64,000 nt of DNA, taken from the NCBI GenBank assembly GCA_022071965.1, contig JAJVIQ010000009.1, positions 124,001 to 188,000 on the forward strand, given 5' to 3'. The stretch comes from Gammaproteobacteria bacterium (lineage in GTDB: Bacteria; Pseudomonadota; Gammaproteobacteria; JAJPIJ01). A model generated the notes under the pieces. It did no database searches, was not told where the DNA came from, and worked only from the letters and a program-made list of their open reading frames with translations. Both the position numbers and the translations under genes were made by a program. Position 1 is the first letter of the stretch, and the number at the start of each line of letters is the position of its first letter. Below are positions 4,181 to 32,026 of this stretch, in pieces.

Positions 4181-6343
4181 TCAGGCGCGCCGCCGGGCGT
4201 GCAGGACGTCCTTGATGCGCTCCAGTCGACGCATGATGTGTTCCAGCTGACGTACGTCGGCGACCAGCACGGTGAATATCATGTGCGCCTTGCCGGATCT
4301 GGCGTCGCTGTAGGACTTGACGGCCACGATGTCGACCTTCTGGTTGCTGAGCATGTCGGAGACGTCGCGCAGCAGCCCGCGGCGGTCGTTGGCCTCGATG
4401 TCGATACTGACCCGATGGTGGGCGCCGGCACTCTCGCCCCAGCTCACCTCGACGATGCGCTCGGGGCGCTCGCGAATCAGCTTCGCCAGGTTCGCGCAGG
4501 TGGCGCGGTGTATCGACACGCCCTGGCCCACGGTGATGTAACCGCCGATCGGCTCGCCAGGCACCGGACTGCAGCAGCGCGCGGTCCGCGTCATTACGTC
4601 GGTCGCACCCAGGACGATGACTTCGCCGTACCCGTCGCCGGCGGCCCGCCGTGCTGCCGTCGGCACCTGCGCCTCTTCGCGCACTGTCTGCCTGGCCGGC
4701 TGCAGGGCCTGCGCGAGGTGCGCGGGAGTGAGATCGCCGCGCCCGAGCGCGGCCAGCAGGTCGTCGGCATCCGCCAGGTGCAGCGCGCGGGCCAGCTCCG
4801 CGGTATTGACGGCATCGAGCCCGAGGCGTTTCAGGTCGCGATCGAGCGCGGCGCGCCCCTGGACGATATGCTGGGCGCGCTCCCGCTCGCGGAACCATCG
4901 GCGTACCTTGGCCCGGGCGCCGGCGGTCTTGAGGTAGCCGAGCGCGGGGTTCAGCCAGTCCCGGCTCGGCCCGCCCTCCCGCCCCGTGAGGATCTCCACC
5001 GTCGAGCCGCTGGCGAGCGCCTGCGCCAGCGGCAGGATGGTCCCGCCGGATTTCGCGCCGCGGCACTGGTGACCGACATCGGTGTGCACGGCGTAGGCGA
5101 AATCGAGCGCGGTCGCCCCGATCGGCAGGTCGATGATGCGCCCCTGCGGGGTGAGCACGTAGATGCGGTCGTGAAACGCGATGTGGCGGAAGCGCTCGAA
5201 GAGATCATTGCCGCTGCCGGGCTCGTCGGATTCGACGTGTTCCAGCAGGCGCCGGGACCATGCCGAGAAGTCCGCCTTGCGCTCCTTGTAATGCCAGTGT
5301 GCCGCGACGCCGAGCTCGGCATGGCGGTGCATGGCGTGGGTGCGGACCTGGATCTCGATGGTGCGGCCCTCCGGGCCGACCACCGCGGTGTGCAGCGACT
5401 GGTAGCGGTTGTCCTTGGGGCGGGCGATGTAGTCGTCGAACTCGCTGGGGAGGGGCGCCCAGAGACTGTGGATCAGGCCGAGTGCGGCGTAGCAGTCCGC
5501 GACCTCGTTGACGACCACGCGAAAGCCGATGGAATCGAAGATGGCCTCCATCCCGACGTTCTTGCGACGCATCTTCTTCCAGATGCTGTAGATGTGCTTG
5601 GGCCGTCCGCTGACCTCGCTGCGTATGCCGGCGCGGCTGAGCTCGAACATCAGGAGATCGAGCACCCGGCGCACGTAGGCGTCGCGTGTCTCGCGCTGTT
5701 CGTTCAACTGGCTGGCGAGCTCGCAGTAGGTCGCCGGATCCACGAAGCGGAACGAGAGATCCTCCAGCTCCCACTTCAGCTGCCACACGCCCAGCCGGTT
5801 GGCAAGCGGCGCGAAGATGTCCAGGGTCTCCTTGCCGAGGCGCCGCCGCGTATCGTCGTCGGCACGCTTGGCGGCGCGCAGTTCGCAGAGCTGCCGCGCC
5901 AGGCGCACGAGGACGACGCGCGGGTCCTCCGCCATGGTGAGCAGCATGCGCCGCAGGCGGTCGGCCTGCGCGGCCTCCACCGCGGTGCGGCGCAACTCCT
6001 TGAGCACGGAGATGCGCTCGGCCTCCCTGAGCAGCCGGGCGACGCCGGCGCCGACGCGTTCCTCGACGAGGTCGGCGTCCATCTCCCCGTACTCGTACAG
6101 CGGCAGCAGCAGGCCGGCGGCGAGCGTCTCGGCGTCAAGGTCCAGCGCCTCCAGGACGCTGACGCATTCCAGTCCCTGCGTTCGGCAGGTGTCCAGGGCG
6201 GGATTGGCGTCCGCACGCTCGCGCAGGACGAGCTCGGCGCGCCGCACGGGCTCGAGGTGCTCGGCCGCCATGCGCCTGGCGACGATCTCGCTGGCCCCGA
6301 GTACGGGCGGCGGCAGCAGCTCGAGGGGGCGTAGCTCGCTCAC
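4181..6343 (-). CDS. relA: GTP pyrophosphokinase RelA, (p)ppGpp synthetase I
   Basis: A stringent-response alarmone synthetase of 720 residues (E. coli RelA is 744). The N-terminal HD hydrolase domain is degenerate: where bifunctional enzymes have the HD-V-E-D-T motif this one reads LDAETLAAGLLLPLYEYG, so hydrolysis is not expected. The synthetase domain has GRPKHIYSIWKKM, the acidic ExDD motif (SEFDDYIARPKDNRYQSLHT) typical of synthetase-only RelA, and the catalytic Glu in IEIQVRT. A TGS domain (RIYVLTPQGRIIDLPIGAT), a Cys-containing zinc-finger region and a C-terminal ACT domain complete it. Translation starts at a GTG, preceded by AGGAT. Activation by uncharged tRNA on the ribosome is known for the family. 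Confidence 0.95.
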   Translation of the reverse strand: MSELRPLELLPPPVLGASEIVARRMAAEHLEPVRRAELVLRERADANPALDTCRTQGLECVSVLEALDLDAETLAAGLLLPLYEYGEMDADLVEERVGAGVARLLREAERISVLKELRRTAVEAAQADRLRRMLLTMAEDPRVVLVRLARQLCELRAAKRADDDTRRRLGKETLDIFAPLANRLGVWQLKWELEDLSFRFVDPATYCELASQLNEQRETRDAYVRRVLDLLMFELSRAGIRSEVSGRPKHIYSIWKKMRRKNVGMEAIFDSIGFRVVVNEVADCYAALGLIHSLWAPLPSEFDDYIARPKDNRYQSLHTAVVGPEGRTIEIQVRTHAMHRHAELGVAAHWHYKERKADFSAWSRRLLEHVESDEPGSGNDLFERFRHIAFHDRIYVLTPQGRIIDLPIGATALDFAYAVHTDVGHQCRGAKSGGTILPLAQALASGSTVEILTGREGGPSRDWLNPALGYLKTAGARAKVRRWFRERERAQHIVQGRAALDRDLKRLGLDAVNTAELARALHLADADDLLAALGRGDLTPAHLAQALQPARQTVREEAQVPTAARRAAGDGYGEVIVLGATDVMTRTARCCSPVPGEPIGGYITVGQGVSIHRATCANLAKLIRERPERIVEVSWGESAGAHHRVSIDIEANDRRGLLRDVSDMLSNQKVDIVAVKSYSDARSGKAHMIFTVLVADVRQLEHIMRRLERIKDVLHARRRA

Positions 6344-20762: not shown

Positions 20763-23084
20763 ATGAACAAAGCGCTACCGAACCATGCCATGCGCAATGA
20801 GATGACGAGCACCATCTACCTTGCCCATAGCGAGAATTCCGCCGGTGCGATGCATCCGCTCATGGTTCATTTGGCGTCCGTCTCGGCGCTGGCCCGCCAG
20901 TTCATGGCGGGGCATCCCGCGGCCGACGAAGCCGCGCTGGCGGGTCTGCTGCACGATCTTGGCAAATACGCCGATCGCTTCCAGTTGCGTTTGCAAGGGA
21001 AGGACGGAGGGCTGGACCATTGGTCCCAAGGGGCTTCACTAGCGCTTACGCAGTTTCGCGCGGTTGCCGCAGCTCTCGCCATCGAAGGCCACCACATCGG
21101 CATGCAAAGAGGCGACCGTGAATCATTGCGGAGATTGCTCCCCGGCAACCTCACATCAGCCGTTTTGCCGGGTCTGGCGCTCTCCGACCCTGACATCACG
21201 CGGCTGCAATCCCGCGCCGTCGCTGATGGGCTGGAATTTAGAAAGCCTGCTGCACCGGCTATCACCTCATGGGCGCAGGCGGTCGCGGCCATGCTAGATG
21301 TACGTATGCTTTTCTCCTGCTTGGTGGATGCCGATTTCCTGGACACAGAGGCGCACTTCAATGGAAATGCGCAAGGAAAGCAGCCGCGACCCAAGGGTCC
21401 AGGCCTGGATGCGGCAAGGGCGCTGGCCGCACTCGATGTCCACATGAATGAATTACGCGCCAGGTCGCAAGCGCAGTCCAACGTGCGCGAGGCGCGCGAG
21501 ACTCTATGGCAAGCCGTCATTCATGCCAGCCAATTGCCATCGGGGTTGTTTACCCTGACCGCGCCGACCGGTTCCGGCAAGACACTGGCCATGTTGCGCT
21601 TTGCCCTGGAGCATTGCATCCGGCACAACAAGAAACGCATCGTGTTGGCCGTTCCGTTTCTTACCGTTATTGAGCAGACGGCCCGCGTTTTTCGGCAGGT
21701 ATTTGCCGATTTCCCGGATCATTTCCTTCTGGAGCATCACAGCCTGGCCGGATTGGGCGACGAATCCGAAAAGCGCGATGCCGAAGACAACGCGGCGCGC
21801 CAGCGGCGCCTGCTCTCGGAAAACTGGGATGCGCCCATCGTGCTCACCACCAACGTCCAGTTGCTCGAATCGCTTTTCTCCAATCGCCCCTCTTCCTGCC
21901 GCAAACTGCACAACCTCATGGACTCGGTGATCCTGTTCGACGAGGCGCAGGACCTGCCGCAGCACTTGGCAGTGCCGACCTTGGCGGTGTTGTCGCATCT
22001 GTCCGCGGCGTATCGCGCCACCGTGGTCTTTTCCACCGCCACGCAACCGGCATTCGATGCGCTGGACACAGCGGTGAAGAAACATGCCGTCAGCGGCTGG
22101 CGGCCGCAGGAAGCCGTGCCGGATCATCCTGCCCTGTTCAAGAGCCTCGAACGCGTCACAGTCCGTTGGCCTGCGAGAGACAGCAAGCCCCGTTGGCCGG
22201 AGCTCGCCGACGAGATACGGGGCTTACAGCAAGTACTGGTCGTGGTGAATCTGAAACGTCACGCGTTGGCGCTGCTTGAAGCCTTGGCCGGAACGGAAGG
22301 CCTGTTTCACCTCTCCACCAACCTGTGCGCCGAGCACCGGCGATCGATCATGGAGAAGGTGAGGGCCCGGCTTGCTGTAGGCCACAGTTGCCGTCTTGTA
22401 TCCACGCAATGCGTCGAGGCCGGTGTGGACGTGGATTTCCCCGTGGTCTACCGCGCCATGGCACCGCTGGAATCCATCGCGCAGGCAGCGGGACGCTGCA
22501 ACCGCGAAGGCCGGCTCAACAAGCAAAACCGGCTTGGGGAGGTCGTGGTGTTCGAGCCCGACGAGGAGGAAGGCTGGCGAAAGCGATATCCCACACACAG
22601 CTACGCTCAGGCGACCCAGGTCACGCAAACCCTGCTTACCCTGCATGGCAACTTGAATATCAACGATCCCGAGACCTTCCGTGCGTATTACCACCGGCTT
22701 TACGACCTGAACAATCCAGAAAGCCAGAATGCCAATCTCAACCGAGCGATTGACGAACTCGACTTTGTAGAAATCGCCAAGACCTACCGGCTCATCGAGA
22801 AAAATGCCATCCAGGTGCTCGTGCCGTGGGCGGAACGTCTGGGCGATTTCCTGTCATTGCGGGCCACAGCGGACAAGGATGGCATCAATGCAGACTGGAT
22901 ACGCCGCGCTCAAGGTCTGGCGGTGAGCGTGTACCGCAATCAGGACGGCCCGCCGGCGTGGACCATTCCGGCGAAGCTGCGGCGCGGCGGTTTTTCGGAT
23001 GAATGGTTCATCCTCGAAGGAGATTTTTATCACGATACATTTGGGCTCATCCCGCCGGAGGGCGCACAGGTTTTCATCGCATAG
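20763..23084 (+). CDS. cas3: CRISPR-associated helicase-nuclease Cas3, type I-C
   Basis: Recruited to target DNA bound by Cascade, which it unwinds and degrades. The 773-residue protein has an N-terminal HD nuclease: MHPLMVHLASVSALARQFMA, LAGLLHDLGKYADRF and IEGHHIGMQ give the metal-binding His/Asp set. The helicase follows with Walker A TAPTGSGKT (about residue 265), the Walker B ILFDEAQDLP, the STATQPAF motif III and motif VI QAAGRCNREGR. The single fused HD-helicase arrangement matches type I-C. ATG 20763 follows the small gene closely; a later Met at residue 14 is possible. Confidence 0.95.
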   Translation: MNKALPNHAMRNEMTSTIYLAHSENSAGAMHPLMVHLASVSALARQFMAGHPAADEAALAGLLHDLGKYADRFQLRLQGKDGGLDHWSQGASLALTQFRAVAAALAIEGHHIGMQRGDRESLRRLLPGNLTSAVLPGLALSDPDITRLQSRAVADGLEFRKPAAPAITSWAQAVAAMLDVRMLFSCLVDADFLDTEAHFNGNAQGKQPRPKGPGLDAARALAALDVHMNELRARSQAQSNVREARETLWQAVIHASQLPSGLFTLTAPTGSGKTLAMLRFALEHCIRHNKKRIVLAVPFLTVIEQTARVFRQVFADFPDHFLLEHHSLAGLGDESEKRDAEDNAARQRRLLSENWDAPIVLTTNVQLLESLFSNRPSSCRKLHNLMDSVILFDEAQDLPQHLAVPTLAVLSHLSAAYRATVVFSTATQPAFDALDTAVKKHAVSGWRPQEAVPDHPALFKSLERVTVRWPARDSKPRWPELADEIRGLQQVLVVVNLKRHALALLEALAGTEGLFHLSTNLCAEHRRSIMEKVRARLAVGHSCRLVSTQCVEAGVDVDFPVVYRAMAPLESIAQAAGRCNREGRLNKQNRLGEVVVFEPDEEEGWRKRYPTHSYAQATQVTQTLLTLHGNLNINDPETFRAYYHRLYDLNNPESQNANLNRAIDELDFVEIAKTYRLIEKNAIQVLVPWAERLGDFLSLRATADKDGINADWIRRAQGLAVSVYRNQDGPPAWTIPAKLRRGGFSDEWFILEGDFYHDTFGLIPPEGAQVFIA

Positions 23085-23092
23085 GAGGATTC

Positions 23093-23845
23093 ATGGCAAA
23101 CGGCACACACACATTGGAAGTCTGGGGCGATCTGGCCTGCTTCACGCGGCCGGAGATGAAGGTCGAGCGTTTCTCCTATCCCGTCATCACGCCGTCGGCC
23201 GCGCGCGGCATCTTCGATGCCATTTACTGGGACGGCAAGCGTGAGAAAGCCGGCATTCGCCCGTACTTCTACTGGCAAGTGACACGCATCGAAGTGCTGG
23301 AAAAGCCGCGCTATATCGCGCTGCGGCGTAACGAGGTAAAAGAAAAGGCGCCCGCCGAGCGCACGATCAAGTATTGGATGGAGGGGCGCGAACCGCCGGA
23401 ACCGATCAGGGCGGATGGCGGCAAGGACGAACTCGGCACCGACCAGAAGGGACGCACGCAGCGCCAGACCATGGCGCTCAAGAATGTGCGCTACCGCCTC
23501 AGCGCCAGGATCGTCCCGAATCCCGGCAACGAATGGGGCAAGCTCAATGCCTGTTTTCAGCGTCGCGCACGGGCGGGGAAGTGCTTTCAGCAACCTTACT
23601 TCGGCTGCCGGGAATTCCCGGCGTTCTTCGAATACATCGAGAACCCGGATGCCGCTCACGCCGCCACCGCGCCTTTCGACCAGCACCTGGGCTTGATCCT
23701 CTACGACGTGTTCGATCTGCGCAAGGAACAGGTGCGGGACAACGACGAACCTTTTATCACGCTTTTCGATGCTACGGTGCGCAACGGCGTGCTGGAGGTG
23801 CCGCCCTTTGATAGCGAGGCAATAAAGAAGCCAAGGAGGAAGTGA
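23093..23845 (+). CDS. cas5c: Type I-C Cas5c, crRNA-processing subunit
   Basis: In type I-C, which lacks Cas6, Cas5c (Cas5d) cuts the CRISPR transcript at the base of each repeat hairpin and stays on the 5' handle within Cascade. The 250-residue protein has the N-terminal VWGDLACFTRPEMKVERFSY, the glycine-containing SAARGIFDAIYW stretch and the family's RRNEV motif (YIALRRNEVKEK), and a C-terminal RRARAGKCFQQPYFG segment with PAFF. An excellent ribosome site (GGAGGATTC) fixes ATG 23093, 9 bases after cas3. The gap to cas8c is 2 bases, with the cas8c ribosome site inside this gene. Confidence 0.93.
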   Translation: MANGTHTLEVWGDLACFTRPEMKVERFSYPVITPSAARGIFDAIYWDGKREKAGIRPYFYWQVTRIEVLEKPRYIALRRNEVKEKAPAERTIKYWMEGREPPEPIRADGGKDELGTDQKGRTQRQTMALKNVRYRLSARIVPNPGNEWGKLNACFQRRARAGKCFQQPYFGCREFPAFFEYIENPDAAHAATAPFDQHLGLILYDVFDLRKEQVRDNDEPFITLFDATVRNGVLEVPPFDSEAIKKPRRK

Positions 23846-23847
23846 CC

Positions 23848-25626
23848 ATGCTGCATGCTCTGGTCGAATACGCAAGACAGCAATTGCCTGATGCAGAGCC
23901 AGGTTTTAAAACCCGTGAAGTGCGCTGGAGCATTGAACTCTCTGCCGATGGCCGATTCCTTGGCATCGTTTCTCTCGGCGACGGAGAGCGCGGACAAGAT
24001 CAGCCGCGCTGCCCGGATATGCACGGGATGGTTGCTGGCGGCAAATCCCACTTTCTCGTAGAAACGGCTCAGACCGTGGCGCTTTACTACAAGGCCAACG
24101 AAGACGAGAAGAAGATCGCCAACGCAGAGACGAAGCATGAATTTTTCGTAGATCTGCTGCGACAGGCGGCTGCTGGGATCCCAGAGCTCGTGCCACTGAC
24201 CCGCGCGCTGGCGGACGAATCACAGCTTGCCTTGATTCGCACCGCGCTAGCCGAACACAAAGCCAGCCCCACGAATTGGGTGGGTTGGCGTGTAAACGGT
24301 GTTGAGCCACGCGAAAATCCGGCTGTGCAGGCATGGTGGCGAGAATGGCGCCGAAACGACCTCAATAAAGAGGTTGCTGAGAATGACACCGCCAAGAATG
24401 CAGCCCATCTCGAAATGCTTTGCCTGCTGACCGGACAATCGGTCAAGCCATTGCTCACGCATCCAAAGATCACTGGCTTGGCGGGCGTCGGAGGCTTGGG
24501 TGCTGGCGACGTCATGGTTGGCTTTGACAAAGCCGCATTCGGGTCCTATGGCCTCGAGCAATCGGCAAACGCGGCAATGGAGCCCGAAGCCGTACAAAAG
24601 TACGTCGATGGTCTCAACGATCTGATCCGAAACCACTCTCGCAAGTTGGGAAGCGCGTTGATCGCCCATTGGTTCAAGGAGCAGCTTCCGGTCGAAGACG
24701 ACCCGCTTGCCTTTCTCTATGGATACGAGAGCGCGGAACAGACAGAAGCAGCTGCGCTAGGAGCGGCAAGGCGCCTGCTAGACTCGATCCGTAGCGGCAA
24801 ACGCGCAGAACTCTGCAACAACCGGTACTACGCGCTCACCCTGTCCGGCGCTGCAGGTCGCGTCATGGTGCGCGACTGGATGGAGGGCAGTTTCGAGGAA
24901 CTGGTGCGCAATGTCGCGGCGTGGTTTGACGACCTGTCTGTCGCCGCTCGCGGCGGCAAAGGATTGGCTCCCGATCCAAAGTTTATGGCCGTATGCGGTG
25001 CATTGGTGCGAGACCTGAAAGACTTGCCTGCTCCCACGGCGGCGACGCTATGGAAGACCGCAGTGCAAAGGTTGCCCATCCCGCAACCTCTCATGGCCCA
25101 GGCGTTGGCCCGCTTCCGTGTAGACGTTGCAGATAAAGACCATCCCCCGTTCAACCACGCCCGCATGGGCCTCATCAAAGCCTATTTCGTCCGAATCAAA
25201 CCAGGAGGTTATCCCACTATGACTGCGTATCTCAATCCAGAACATAGTGCCCCAGCCTACCACTGTGGGCGACTAATGGCTTTACTCGCTGAGCTTCAGT
25301 ATGCGGCCCTTGGAGATGTAGGTGCTGGCGTGGTGCAGCGGTATTACGCCGCTGCCAGCCAGACGCCCGGACTGATCCTTGGACGGCTAATTAGAAATGC
25401 GCAGAACCACCTGAACAAACCGGACAAGCCTTGGCTGGGATCGAAATTTGAGAGGCCCATGATGGAAATCATCGCTCGCCTTAATGATGACTTTCCACGC
25501 GTCCTCGACCTCGAAGGGCAGGGGCTGTTTGCTCTCGGCTACTACCAGCAGCTCGCCGCGCTGCGCGCGGGCAACAACAAGAACTCTGCGACCGAATCCA
25601 CCACCGAACAGGGAGAAACCAAATGA
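23848..25626 (+). CDS. cas8c: Type I-C Cascade large subunit Cas8c (Csd1)
   Basis: The large subunit recognises the PAM and stabilises the R-loop. The 592-residue protein matches Csd1: an N-terminal [18 protein letters not shown], a central [18 protein letters not shown]-like region and a C-terminal helical part rich in [19 protein letters not shown] at 23835-23839 lies 8 bases before ATG 23848, which favours this over GTG 23842. Its 3' part contains the internal Cas11c start at 25219. The stop overlaps the cas7c ATG (ATGA). Confidence 0.92.
25219..25626 (+). CDS. cas11c: Internal translation product Cas11c (small subunit), predicted
   Basis: Type I-C systems make the small subunit Cas11c from an internal start inside cas8c (established for this subtype). 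Here the internal in-frame ATG at 25219 is preceded by AGGAGG at 25203-25208, 10 bases upstream, a textbook ribosome site inside a coding region. It would give a 135-residue protein starting [19 protein letters not shown], a pattern like known Cas11c N-termini, where an AY-x(2)-GRL stretch follows the start. Cas11 lines the non-target strand groove of Cascade. The site fits the known design, but translation is not shown. Confidence 0.75.
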
Positions 25627-26591
25627 GCGCCATCCAGAACCGTTACGAATTCCTTTATCTTTTCGACTGTGAGAATGGCAACCCCAATGGGGACCCGGAT
25701 GCTGGCAACAGCCCGCGCATCGACCCGGAGGACATGCACGGATTGGTGTCGGACGTAGCCATCAAACGACGGGTGCGCAACTACGTTCAGACGGCCTTCG
25801 AGAACAAAGCGCCCAATGCCGTGTTTGTCGAGCATGCAACCAATCTGAACAAGCCCATCACCGCCGCGCACGTGGCAACAGCCGGTGCACCGGCTGGAGG
25901 TGCAACGCGCTCGCAGGTCGGCAAGGCTCGCGACTGGATGTGCCAGCAATTCTTCGACGTGCGAACCTTTGGAGCGGTCATGTCCACCGGTCCAAATGCC
26001 GGACAGGTGCGCGGCCCGGTACAGATTTCCTTTTCCCGCTCGATCGACCCGATTCTGCCGATGGACGCCTCAATCACCCGCATGGCGGTCGCGGAAAAGG
26101 TGAAAAATGCCAAAACGGTGGAAGATTACGAGAAATGGGAGAACGAACAGGAAGAAGACAAGCTCCGCACCATGGGCCGCAAGGCCCTCATCCCCTATGG
26201 CCTCTATGCCTGCAAGGGCTTCGTCTCCGCGCACCTCGCACAGGGCACCGGTTTCTCTGGCGACGACCTCAGCCACCTTTGGGACGCACTCAAGGGCATG
26301 TGGGACCACGACCGCTCCGCCTCCAAGGGCATGATGTCGTGCCGTGGACTCTACGTCTTCAAACACGTCGGCACGGACACCGACCAAGCACAACGCGTTC
26401 GCCAGGCCATGCTCGGTTGCGCGCCGGCCCATCGGCTCCTCGATTTGTCCACGCACAAACGTCCGATGGGCAACGCCATTGTGGAGATCAAGAAGGTGGT
26501 AGATGGTTCACCCCGCTCCTTCAGCGACTACCTTGTGACCGTCCACGAGGATCGGCTGCCGGTCGGCGTAGAGCTCATCGCGTATCCGTGA
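25623..26591 (+). CDS. cas7c: Type I-C Cascade backbone Cas7c (Csd2)
   Basis: Cas7c forms the helical filament that holds the crRNA spacer. The 322-residue protein carries the hallmark [17 protein letters not shown] near residue 18 and the following [29 protein letters not shown] and [14 protein letters not shown] are the family's RNA-contact and thumb-linked segments. The ATG overlaps the cas8c stop by ATGA, and its own stop overlaps the cas4 GTG (GTGA), so the three genes are tightly coupled. GGGAGAAACC serves as ribosome site. Confidence 0.95.
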
Positions 26592-27226
26592 CAACGCCCG
26601 ATGAAGAGCTAATCCCACTCTCGGCGCTCAATCAATTCGCCTACTGCCCCCGGCGCTGCTATCTCATTCACGCCGAGGGCGAGTTCGAGGACAACGTGCA
26701 TACCCTGCGCGGGAGCCATGAACATGAGCGGGTGGACAGCGTAAGGCACGAGGTGAGCGCCGGGGTGCGAGTGGAATATGGCTTGCCGGTGTGGAGCCGA
26801 AGGCTCGGCATCACCGGCAAGTGTGATGCGGTGGAGTTTCATCCCGACGGCAGCGTGTATCCCGTCGAGTACAAACACGGTAAACGCAAGCGCTGGATCA
26901 ACGATGATCTGCAACTCGCCGCACAGGGGATGTGCCTGGAGGAGACGCTGGGTCGGCCGGCGCCAAAGGGCGCGATCTACCATCACCAATCACGCCGGCG
27001 GCGGGAGGTGGTGATCGACGGTACGTTGCGCGGGGCCGTGGAGGCGGCGGCGCGGCAGGTGCGTGAGCTTCTGGCCGGCGGAAGACTGCCGCCGCCGGTG
27101 GACGACGGGCGCCGCTGCCCGAAGTGCTCCTTGCGCGACATTTGTCAGCCGGAGTTGGCGCGCTCCAGCGGCAGATTGACGGCACTGCGCGCAAAGCTGT
27201 TCGAGCCCGAGGATAACACGCGGTGA
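26588..27226 (+). CDS. cas4: CRISPR adaptation nuclease Cas4
   Basis: Cas4 helps Cas1-Cas2 choose and trim prespacers with the right PAM and orientation. The 212-residue protein has the RecB-type nuclease core: [10 protein letters not shown] (catalytic Asp), VEYKHGKRK (Glu-x-Lys motif) and [13 protein letters not shown] (Gln/Tyr-region helix). Four Cys, one in YCPRRC and three in [10 protein letters not shown], are expected to bind a [4Fe-4S] cluster. Translation starts at GTG 26588, overlapping the cas7c stop. It is followed by 178 bases without a gene before cas1. Confidence 0.92.
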
Positions 27227-27404
27227 CAGGGCACAAAGACGCCCTCTATACTCATCACCGTTCCCAACCACAGCCTCTGGGCGTGGGCACGCCCGCAGCG
27301 ATTCTCCCCGACATTCCCGCGCATCAGCGCCATGAGCGCGATTAGCTGCAGCGGAAGTTGTTCGGTTGATTGAATGACCGAGCACGGCCAAATCGGGGAT
27401 TCGA

Positions 27405-28439
27405 ATGGCTTTGCTTCTTAACACGCTTTACGTCACAACGCCCGAGGCCTACCTGCGCCTGGAAGGCGAAACGTTGTGCGTGATGATAGAGAAAGTAAAG
27501 CGACTGCAGATTCCGATGCATCACTTGGCAAGCATCGTCTGTTTCGGCGACGTGATGTTGAGCCCGGCTCTACTCGGTCGCTGCATGGAAGAGGGCCGCA
27601 GCGTGGTGTGGCTGGAACGCGGCGGCCGCTTCCAGGCGCGCGTGGAAGGTCCTGTAAATGGAAATATACTGTTGCGGCAGGCACAATTTCGGGCGGCCGA
27701 CCACCCGGGCAAGACGATCGAATTGGCGCGGGCCTTTCTCGCCGGGAAGCTGCGCAATAGCCGCAATGTTCTATTGCGCGGCGCACGGGACGGGCAGAAC
27801 GATGCCGAGCGCGCGGTGCTCGTGCAAAATGCGCGGCTCGTGGCGGGGCATCTGCGCAAACTCCCCCAGGCTCCGGATCTGGACGGCCTGCGCGGCGAGG
27901 AGGGCAATGCCGCCCGCATTTACTTTCAGTCCATGCAATTCCTTATACGCCAAGCCGTCCGCAGCGATTTTGCTTTCGATGCACGCAGCCGCAGGCCGCC
28001 TACGGATCCCATGAACGCGATGCTGTCTTTTCTCTACGCCATTCTGCTGCACGATTGCCGCAGCGCGCTGGAAGCGGTCGGGCTCGACCCGCAGCTCGGC
28101 TTCCTCCACACCGTGCGGCCGGGGCGCGCGGCTTTGGCGCTCGATCTGCTGGAGGAATTCCGCTCGGTGATCGCTGATCGTCTAGCGTTGACTCTGATTA
28201 ACCGCGGGCAGATTCAGGCAAGCCATTTCGATAGGCGCGAGGGCGGGGCCGTGCTGCTGAACGATGAGGGGCGCAAAGTGGTTATTACCGCCTATCAGGA
28301 ACGCAAGCAGGAGACGTTGACCCACCCCGTGCTGGAGCAGGAGGTGCCGATCGGGTTGCTTCCACACGTCCAGGCACGATTGCTGGCGCGGCATCTGCGT
28401 GGTGACGCGCCGGCGTATGTGCCGTATCTCCACAAGTAA
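27405..28439 (+). CDS. cas1: CRISPR integrase Cas1, type I-C
   Basis: Cas1 with Cas2 inserts new spacers at the leader end. The 344-residue protein has the metal-binding triad: Glu in [14 protein letters not shown], His in [14 protein letters not shown] and Asp/Glu in [10 protein letters not shown]. The N-terminal beta domain ([19 protein letters not shown]) is typical of I-C Cas1. ATG 27405 follows GGGGATTCGA, a weak ribosome site. The 178-base gap from cas4 may hold a second promoter for the adaptation genes, but I see no convincing one. Confidence 0.95.
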
Positions 28440-28738
28440 TGGACGCCATGTTGATTCTCGTTGCCTACGATGTCTCGACCGAAACGAGCGCCGGACGGCG
28501 GCGGCTGCGGCGCGTGGCCAAGGTGTGCCTGGATTACGGCCAACGTGTGCAGAAGTCGGTGTTCGAGTGCAGGGTAGATAAGACCACGTACGAGGTTTTG
28601 GAGAAAAGGCTGCTTGACGAGATTGATTCAAGCGAGGATAACCTGCGGCTGTACCGGCTAAATGAACCGATCGAGGAGCATGTCAAGGAATTCGGGCAGT
28701 TCAGGGCCGTGAATTTCGACGGCCCGCTGGTGGTGTAA
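28439..28738 (+). CDS. cas2: CRISPR adaptation protein Cas2
   Basis: A 99-residue ferredoxin-fold dimer that forms the core of the Cas1-Cas2 integration complex. LVAYDVSTE carries the conserved Asp at the first strand, followed by the I-C pattern [20 protein letters not shown] and KSVFECRVD. The ATG overlaps the cas1 stop (TAATG), and a second in-frame ATG at 28448 gives the shorter form seen in many relatives. The CRISPR leader begins right after its stop. Confidence 0.95.
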
Positions 28739-28779
28739 CGCGAACCTGAAGCGGCGGCCAACGGGCCGGGAGGTTCGCG
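28739..28779 (+). terminator. Hairpin just after cas2
   Basis: An inverted repeat of 9 bp (CGCGAACCT at 28739-28747 with AGGTTCGCG at 28771-28779) encloses a GC-rich second stem (GGCC...GGGCC). It starts at the base after the cas2 stop. No clean T-run follows, so it may be a pause or an attenuator that separates cas mRNA from the array rather than a strong terminator. Confidence 0.4.
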
Positions 28780-28915
28780 CGATGCATAAGTCGCTCTTTT
28801 ACAATATGGTTTGTTGCGGTATCGAATGTATAGGCGTTTTTCTTTGTCTCTCGAAGTCGGCGTTCGCGCCAGCCGCGCCGTTTTTCTCAGCAAATGAAGG
28901 AATTGGCGTAATAGT
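28780..28915 (+). promoter_or_regulatory. CRISPR leader, AT-rich
   Basis: A stretch richer in A and T than the rest of the window (for example TCTTTTACAATATGG and CGTTTTTCTTTGTCTC) directly precedes the first repeat, and the far end of the array carries the decayed repeat. Both facts put the leader here, so new spacers enter at about 28916. A -10-like TATAGG is present but no well-spaced promoter pair stands out. Confidence 0.65.
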
Positions 28916-30727
28916 GTATCGCCCGCTCGATTGAGCGGGCGCGGATTGAAACTCGGATACAGGCGGCGGAGGAGATCCTCCTCCTGCGGTATCGCCCGCT
29001 CGATTGAGCGGGCGCGGATTGAAACTCGATCCGCGTCGCATCGTCCAGGGCGATCCACTGTATCGCCCGCTCGATTGAGCGGGCGCGGATTGAAACCTCC
29101 CGAACCTGATCGAGGCGGGGCTCACCGAGGGTATCGCCCGCTCGATTGAGCGGGCGCGGATTGAAACATGCTGACGCCGTCGATCGTCGCACCAGGGGAA
29201 GCGTATCGCCCGCTCGATTGAGCGGGCGCGGATTGAAACAGGGCGTCGTCGATCTCCATCGCGATAGTTTTGGCGTATCGCCCGCTCGATTGAGCGGGCG
29301 CGGATTGAAACGTTTGCGACCCAAGGAACTGTCGCAGTCCATGCCGTATCGCCCGCTCGATTGAGCGGGCGCGGATTGAAACGCTGCACTATGGCGTACA
29401 CTTGAGGGTGGAACAGGTATCGCCCGCTCGATTGAGCGGGCGCGGATTGAAACCTCATAGGGCCGGCAGTGGTTGCGCTTCAGATCTGTATCGCCCGCTC
29501 GATTGAGCGGGCGCGGATTGAAACAATGACGTGGATCTCGCCGCGCGTGACCTGGAAGGTATCGCCCGCTCGATTGAGCGGGCGCGGATTGAAACTCGAG
29601 AGCATGCGCCACATCAGCGTGCTCTCTATGTATCGCCTGCTCGATTGAGCGGGCGCGGATTGAAACACCGATCCAAAGGTGCTGTATCAAGGCGGAGATT
29701 GTATCGCCCGCTCGATTGAGCGGGCGCGGATTGAAACGCTTACAAAGCGTCCGCTCTGCCGGTTGAGCTACGTATCGCCCGCTCGATTGAGCGGGCGCGG
29801 ATTGAAACATAACGTCACCGCTCAAGAGGTTCGGGCGCTGACGTATCGCCCGCTCGATTGAGCGGGCGCGGATTGAAACTTTTTCAGGCGCTCGGCAAGC
29901 TTCTCAGCAACAGGTATCGCCCGCTCGATTGAGCGGGCGCGGATTGAAACCGTTAATCGTGGTAGGCAGGACTTTCCCGAGCAGGTATCGCCCGCTCGAT
30001 TGAGCGGGCGCGGATTGAAACTCGAAAGTGCGTGACGTTCGTCCAACGGGAGGCCGTATCGCCCGCTCGATTGAGCGGGCGCGGATTGAAACATTGGTGA
30101 GGGTGACGGCCATTCATCGGGTCAGAGGTATCGCCCGCTCGATTGAGCGGGCGCGGATTGAAACGAGCCAGCCGGTCATAGCCACGCCCATGCAATCAGG
30201 TATCGCCCGCTCGATTGAGCGGGCGCGGATTGAAACGAGCCAGCCGGTCATAGCCACGCCCATGCAATCAGGTATCGCCCGCTCGATTGAGCGGGCGCGG
30301 ATTGAAACTCGCCTTGGCGTCATGGGGTAGCCAGTCCTTGCCGGTATCGCCCGCTCGATTGAGCGGGCGCGGATTGAAACCACGCTCCGCAGACTTTGCG
30401 TAATTTCCCCCATCGTATCGCCCGCTCGATTGAGCGGGCGCGGATTGAAACTCTACGAGGCCATTCGTTTGAAGGCCGAGCATGTGTATCGCCCGCTCGA
30501 TTGAGCGGGCGCGGATTGAAACCGTCGAGGAGGAATATCTGCCCTTCCCCGTAGGCGTATCGCCCGCTCGATTGAGCGGGCGCGGATTGAAACAACTTTG
30601 CACGACGTCGCCGCCGAGCTGCAGATGGTATCGCCCGCTCGATTGAGCGGGCGCGGATTGAAACCGAGTTAAGCGGGCGGATATCGCCGAGATTCGAAGT
30701 ATCGCCCGCTCGATTGAGCGGGCGCGG
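28916..30727 (+). CRISPR. Type I-C CRISPR array, 25 intact repeats plus a truncated terminal repeat, 25 spacers
   Basis: Repeats are 37 bases, starting GTATCGCCCGC and ending GGATTGAAAC. Each has a perfect 9-bp hairpin (CGCCCGCTC and GAGCGGGCG, loop GATT), after which 11 bases (CGGATTGAAAC) remain; this equals the 11-base 5' handle that Cas5c leaves on type I-C crRNAs. Spacers are 34-36 bases, mostly 34. Repeat 11 (29630-29666) has one C-to-T change in the left stem that a G-U pair would tolerate. Spacers 18 (30165-30199) and 19 (30237-30271) are identical. The last repeat (from 30699) matches for 29 bases and then loses its final 8. Direction follows from the leader side and the degenerate end. 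Confidence 0.98.
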
Positions 30728-30769
30728 TGTTCCTGTGGGCCGCTAAGGAGTAGCCGCCCCGTGTCTGAT

Positions 30770-30801
30770 TTGCAATTGTGCATTCTGAATGCATAATTGC
30801 A
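30770..30801 (+). promoter_or_regulatory. Large palindromic operator overlapping the DUF4143 ATPase promoter
   Basis: Arms TGCAATTGTGCATTC (30771-30785) and GAATGCATAATTGCA (30787-30801) are complementary at 14 of 15 positions around one central base. Inside lie TTGCAA (30770-30775) and CATAAT (30792-30797), spaced 16 bases, a plausible -35/-10 pair. Transcription would begin about 30804, next to the ATG at 30806, so the mRNA may be nearly leaderless. A bound dimeric regulator would block this promoter. Confidence 0.55.
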
Positions 30802-30805
30802 CGAT

Positions 30806-32026
30806 ATGACCGTCTACCTGCCACGCACCCTCGAGCCGATCCTGCGCAAGACCGCAAAGGAATTCCCGGCGGTGGTGCTGACGGGCCCGCGCCAGTCGGG
30901 AAAGACTACGCTGCTGCGTCACGTTTTCGGCCGGCGTGCGCACTACGTTTCCCTCGAACCACCGGACGTACGGGCGGCCGCGGGGGCCGATCCCCGCGGC
31001 TTTCTCGATGCGTGGAGACCCCCAGTGATCCTGGACGAGATTCAATACGCGCCCGATCTGCTGCCTTACATCAAGGAGCGCATCGATGCCAAGCGATCGC
31101 TAAAGGGCCGGTATCTGCTCTCCGGATCACAGAATCTGTTGCTCATGCAGCAGGTGGCCGAGACGCTGGCAGGACGCGCTGCGGTGCTGCACCTGCTGCC
31201 TTTATCGCGTCGAGAATTGGCGGGCGAATCCAAGGCGCCGCCACCGTGGGAGCGAAGGGCGCCGCGGGGCGAGGTGCTCAAGGGCGAGCGGGAAGCATTC
31301 TGGACGGCGGCGTTGCATGGGGGATTTCCGGAGCTGGCCACCGAACCGCGGCGCGATGTCGCACTCTGGTATGGCAGCTATGTCCAAACATACCTCGAGC
31401 GCGACGTGCGGACACTGCGCCAGGTGGGAGACCTCACGCAATTCCAGACGTTCCTGCGCGCGCTGGCCGCGCGTAGCGCCCAGCTCATCAATCTGACGGA
31501 TATGGGCCGCGACCTCGGCCTCGCCACCAACACCGTGAAGGCGTGGATTTCCGTGCTGGAGGCGACGCATCAGATCGCGATCCTGCGTCCGTATTACGCG
31601 AATGTCGGCAAGCGACTGGTGAAGACGCCCAAAGTCTATTTCACCGATACCGGCATGCTGAGTTACCTCGCGGGAATCCGCGACCCGGCGCACGCTGCCG
31701 CGGGTCCGATGGCCGGTGCCATCGCGGAAACCGCCGTCGTGAGCGAAGTGCTCAAATCGTTTTTCCATCGGGGCGCGGAACCGCGCCTGTATTTCTGGCG
31801 CACCGCGACCGGCGACGAAGTGGACCTGGTAATTGAAACCCCGACCGGCCTGTTGCCGCTGGAAGTAAAGGCCACGGCCACCCCGTCCCCCGCCATGGCC
31901 CGCGGCATCCTGCGCTTCCGAGAATCGGTTCGAGAGGCGCGTGCAGACGGATATGTAGTGCATATCGGCGACGTCTGGCTGCCGCTGGGGGGCAATATCT
32001 CGGCCCTGCCCTTCGGCACCTTGTAG
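30806..32026 (+). CDS. AAA ATPase with DUF4143 domain
   Basis: About 406 residues. An N-terminal AAA_14-type ATPase has Walker A TGPRQSGKTTLLRH and Walker B PPVILDEIQYAPDLLPYIKE, then SGSQNLLLMQQVAETLAGRA (sensor region) and the family's PLSRREL. A C-terminal DUF4143 region follows (VYFTDTGMLSYLAGI, and the nuclease-like TATGDEVDLVIETPTGLLPLEVKA whose acidic and Lys residues resemble the PD-(D/E)xK pattern). The function of the family is not established; members are abundant near defence and mobile genes. ATG 30806 was chosen over TTG 30797 because the palindrome covers the latter. No ribosome site is seen. Confidence 0.85.
   Translation: MTVYLPRTLEPILRKTAKEFPAVVLTGPRQSGKTTLLRHVFGRRAHYVSLEPPDVRAAAGADPRGFLDAWRPPVILDEIQYAPDLLPYIKERIDAKRSLKGRYLLSGSQNLLLMQQVAETLAGRAAVLHLLPLSRRELAGESKAPPPWERRAPRGEVLKGEREAFWTAALHGGFPELATEPRRDVALWYGSYVQTYLERDVRTLRQVGDLTQFQTFLRALAARSAQLINLTDMGRDLGLATNTVKAWISVLEATHQIAILRPYYANVGKRLVKTPKVYFTDTGMLSYLAGIRDPAHAAAGPMAGAIAETAVVSEVLKSFFHRGAEPRLYFWRTATGDEVDLVIETPTGLLPLEVKATATPSPAMARGILRFRESVREARADGYVVHIGDVWLPLGGNISALPFGTL

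Follow-up and report, generated by a model that had tools for sequence, protein, structure and literature searches.

A type I-C CRISPR spacer corresponding to part of a tRNA-Thr(UGU) gene, probably of phage origin

The window, the whole stretch of 64,000 nucleotides analysed here, contains a CRISPR array in which one spacer, the twelfth, reads as part of a tRNA gene. This raises the question of where such a spacer was acquired and what it would target. The first-pass annotation offered three sources: a phage-borne tRNA, the integration-site tRNA of a mobile element, or the tRNA gene of the host itself. The explanation favoured here, at a probability of about 0.78, is that spacer 12 is an ordinary type I-C spacer, acquired from the tRNA-Thr(UGU) gene of a phage or phage-like element during infection of an ancestor of the host.

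The array adjoins a complete type I-C operon on the forward strand (20763-28738), with the gene order cas3-cas5c-cas8c-cas7-cas4-cas1c-cas2 (Table 1). The assignment follows from the gene content by NCBIfam curated cut-offs: cas8c, cas5c and a csd2-type cas7 are found in one operon with cas3 and the cas1-cas2-cas4 genes. The Rfam CRISPR-DR9 model places 24 repeats above its gathering score and repeat 11 slightly below it; the last repeat, which is truncated, matches in part. Since this last repeat is degenerate, the leader is placed on the cas2 side of the array. One C-to-T change, at 29638, sets repeat 11 (29630-29666) apart from the remaining full repeats, which are all identical. Spacers 18 (30165-30199) and 19 (30237-30271) are also identical, a one-unit duplication of spacer and repeat. 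Directly downstream of the array is a 409-aa open reading frame (30797-32026) with a Walker A-like motif (GPRQSGKTTLLR) and no NCBIfam match.

Table 1. Features of the CRISPR-Cas locus (positions in the window)
Feature	Position	Strand	Basis
cas3 (helicase + HD nuclease)	20763..23084	+	TIGR01587, TIGR01596, above cut-off
cas5c	23003..23845	+	TIGR01876, 1.3e-36, above cut-off
cas8c (csd1)	23842..25626	+	TIGR01863, 7e-88, above cut-off
cas7 (csd2)	25623..26591	+	TIGR02589, 1.6e-88, above cut-off
cas4	26588..27226	+	TIGR00372, 1.2e-36, above cut-off
cas1c	27405..28439	+	TIGR03640, 4.6e-152, above cut-off
cas2	28439..28738	+	TIGR01573, 1.6e-18, above cut-off
Putative leader, cas2 to first repeat	28739..28915	+	Position only (intact array end)
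CRISPR array, 26 repeats of 37 nt (GTATCGCCCGCTCGATTGAGCGGGCGCGGATTGAAAC), 25 spacers of 34-36 nt	28916..30728	+	Repeat reading, Rfam CRISPR-DR9
Spacer 12, minus strand = tRNA-Thr(UGU) nt 7-40	29738..29771	-	Direct reading, Rfam tRNA, 3 mismatches to phage tRNA-Thr

Spacer 12 (GCTTACAAAGCGTCCGCTCTGCCGGTTGAGCTAC, 34 nt) is numbered from the cas/leader end and lies in the middle of the array, between the repeat at 29701-29737 and the one that starts at 29772. Its reverse complement, GTAGCTCAACCGGCAGAGCGGACGCTTTGTAAGC, consists of a D-stem (GCTC/GAGC) around the loop AACCGGCA, the 5' anticodon stem GACGC, the loop TTTGTAA with the anticodon TGT, and a final GC, where the 3' strand of the anticodon stem begins. 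The Rfam tRNA model matches this strand with 22 bits (E 0.009 in a short stretch) against a gathering score of 29, a score reached with 34 nt of tRNA, under half of the whole molecule. The same model finds no tRNA match in the other spacers of the array.

Comparison with 310 collected tRNA genes gives a best distance for spacer 12 of 3 mismatches in 34, a value that is partly selected, since the set includes genes fetched with a pattern derived from the spacer. The other 24 spacers are 13-16 mismatches away from the same genes, 1000 shuffles of spacer 12 at least 10, and 2000 random 34-mers from the window at least 7. The contigs matched by the pattern all carry tRNA-Thr(TGT) according to ARAGORN (28 of 28 viral and 40 of 40 genomic). 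The tRNA likeness of spacer 12 is not due to chance, and the earlier reading of it as a tRNA-Thr(TGT) fragment running from the D-arm to the anticodon arm is borne out, down to its exact coordinates.

An exact protospacer was found neither in the host assembly nor in the genomes sampled from its order, class and phylum, and INPHARED, PLSDB, IMG/VR and 85,000 species genomes have none either; neither the 34-nt nor the 24-nt query had an exact match in IMG/VR, and the 30-nt query had none in the species genomes. Near matches in phages are present. A loose (degenerate) tRNA-Thr pattern retrieved the 28 viral contigs from IMG/VR, and three of these (L066, L077 and L078) are the nearest to spacer 12, each with 3 mismatches in 34, so that the nearest phage match is close but not exact, and a phage that is still unsequenced could hold the exact sequence. 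The phage contig L066 encodes a terminase, a portal and a major head protein. The terminase match of L077 is weak, and L078 encodes a replication initiation protein and an SSB. Spacer 12 also has 20 consecutive bases in common with a fourth contig, L054, from the D-stem through the anticodon arm, and the D-loop of L054 is one base shorter. The phage-type genes of L054 include one for an RF-1-domain release factor and one for a deoxynucleotide phosphatase. Its release-factor gene (4799-5158) lies less than 1 kb from the tRNA-Thr gene (5923-5997). Two other virus contigs (L059 and L062) carry about 20-30 tRNA genes in less than 12 kb each.

The only INPHARED matches covering 97% of spacer 12 are to records of E. 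coli phages, with 81.8% identity, and lie in tRNA-Thr genes in both records that are annotated. These phage matches, and the plasmid matches at the same 81.8% identity, were rejected as the source, as they reflect tRNA homology. The rest of the array gives no comparable lead. Joined together, the 24 distinct spacers have no match in INPHARED or PLSDB at E<=1, and against four genomes of the order they match the array itself and otherwise only at chance level. In 29 tRNA-bearing virus records, spacer 12 alone is convincing; the best match of the others is 22 nt at 91% (E 0.014), and there is no second link to any one phage. Spacers 11, 13, 18 and 1, represented by their first 26-28 bases, have no match in IMG/VR.

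Could the spacer instead be directed at the host's own tRNA-Thr(UGU) gene? The host assembly comprises 3.56 Mb in 39 contigs and is 98.7% complete. It includes Thr-GGU and Thr-CGU genes, but a Thr-UGU gene was not found in it, which leaves room for self-targeting, since that sequence itself is not open to inspection. In three relatives (L139, L140 and L141, one of the same genus), the Thr-UGU gene follows coaX and a SPOR-type gene, names that come from reading the sequences. The host assembly (G000) has no baf/coaX family match either, so the Thr-UGU gene and coaX are probably both in one assembly gap. The orthologues in the relatives are 13-14 mismatches in 34 away from spacer 12 and have an unusual D-arm (GTAGTTAAATGGCATAAC). 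Within the assembly, only the array copy is found within 3 mismatches of the spacer, and the closest host tRNA found, Thr-GGU, has 8. With host tRNAs differing at 8 or more of the 34 positions, spacer 12 should be harmless to its host. If it matched an essential tRNA perfectly, an active type I-C system would kill the cell. By these distances, self-targeting by spacer 12 is unlikely, and we regard a target in the host's missing Thr-UGU gene as the least credible of the possible origins.

An origin in an integration site, as an attP/tRNA fragment on a plasmid, an integrative element or a tRNA-inserting prophage, is improbable as well. Such elements do commonly use tRNA genes for integration, and one may have been missed in an assembly of 39 contigs. 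However, attP sites that restore a tRNA upon integration normally carry the half from the anticodon loop to the 3' end, while spacer 12 covers only positions 7-40, the 5' half. The coverage therefore argues against this second of the proposed sources and favours a full tRNA gene over an attP fragment. An integrating element should also match the tRNA of its recipient, and outside the array no sequence within 3 mismatches is present in the order (4 genomes) or in the samples of the class (369) and phylum (398), three sets that share some genomes and each contain the host. A close match is absent from PLSDB as well. The chromosome of an unrelated bacterium, whose DNA was acquired by the host, is a somewhat less doubtful source, although still an unlikely one. 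The tRNA-Thr pattern found 40 contigs in the 85,000 species genomes, the nearest of them 4 mismatches from spacer 12, with tRNA-Thr(UGU) genes of Bipolaricaulota, Chloroflexota, Planctomycetota and Myxococcota at this distance, and many such genes are part of chromosomal Thr-Tyr-(Gly)-Thr clusters. None is closer to the spacer than the phage genes, but the difference (3 versus 4 mismatches) favours a phage only slightly, and sequence distance by itself does not prove phage origin. The phage is preferred mainly because of the usual origin of CRISPR spacers, cellular DNA of another phylum being a rarer source than phage DNA. A phage-borne tRNA is the best supported of the three sources first proposed, as the nearest matches, at 3 mismatches, are in virus contigs.

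The PAM fits this picture less neatly. In type I-C systems, a 5'-TTC PAM adjoins the first base of the spacer, or GAA on the other side by the convention of PMC5071653, and it accompanied 20 of 22 new spacers in that study. TTC is also the PAM of the Xanthomonas albilineans I-C system (PMC10810201), which serves as the standard for comparison here. The position was read in the near-match phage tRNAs, none of which is an exact protospacer. For spacer 12 the three PAM bases would be complementary to tRNA positions 43-41, the pairing partners of positions 27-29 (G, A and C in the spacer). With a perfectly paired anticodon stem they would read GAC; for TTC, 28-42 and 27-43 would both have to be mispaired. 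None of the four closest, non-identical phage tRNAs has TTC at this place: the bases are GTC in L054 and L066, CCC in L077 and GAT in L078. In L054, whose 5' strand is also GACGC, an A stands opposite A at 28-42, resulting in GTC. Three possibilities follow: mispairing in the anticodon stem of the source tRNA, imprecise acquisition, or a relaxed PAM in this system.

According to the favoured explanation, the tRNA-Thr(UGU) gene of a phage or phage-like element would have supplied spacer 12, and the crRNA made from it would be antisense to the tRNA. Cascade would bind the phage DNA over the part of the tRNA gene from the D-arm to the anticodon arm and would recruit Cas3, leading to degradation of the phage DNA. 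The tRNA gene would then passively mark a place on the phage genome rather than act as a regulated target; nothing shows a role for tRNA function in CRISPR targeting here. A proposal found in PMC10264068 is that phage tRNAs help phages to evade tRNA-cutting defences.

Spacer 12 is real and, most likely, an ordinary CRISPR memory, one well-explained spacer. It points to encounters of this lineage with phages that carry tRNA genes, and it indicates that such a gene can be kept as a spacer when the host tRNA has diverged enough. A far bolder idea, which we consider very improbable, is that spacer 12 acts as a guide against many phages and is kept because tRNA genes rank among the most conserved DNA of phages that carry them. 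If so, a single crRNA directed at the conserved D-arm and anticodon arm could serve for priming or interference against a wide range of unrelated phages, and the divergent host Thr-UGU, with the D-arm unusual in its family, would make the targeting safe. If such wide-ranging targeting by way of a conserved phage tRNA were demonstrated, it would be relevant to the persistence of certain spacers. The open-access literature searched yielded no description of a spacer directed at the tRNA gene of a phage, and one may exist elsewhere; PMC3119063 was rejected as a precedent, as it concerns the insertion of an island rather than a spacer.

The system agrees with known type I-C CRISPR-Cas systems in gene content, gene order and its 34-36 nt spacers, and the models for Cas5c, Cas8c, Cas7 and Cas1c all score above their curated cut-offs. 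It differs in its repeat, which is 37 nt long and of the CRISPR-DR9 type, whereas the commoner I-C repeat length is 32 nt. The extensively self-targeting system of Xanthomonas albilineans is of the same type, but its spacers match prophages and plasmids of the host (PMC10810201), whereas here there is no convincing host match outside the array. Compared with phage-borne tRNA-Thr(UGU) genes, spacer 12 has the same D-arm and anticodon arm to within 3 of 34 bases for three phage genes from IMG/VR, and the mismatches to these nearest three are found in the D-loop and at positions 26-29.
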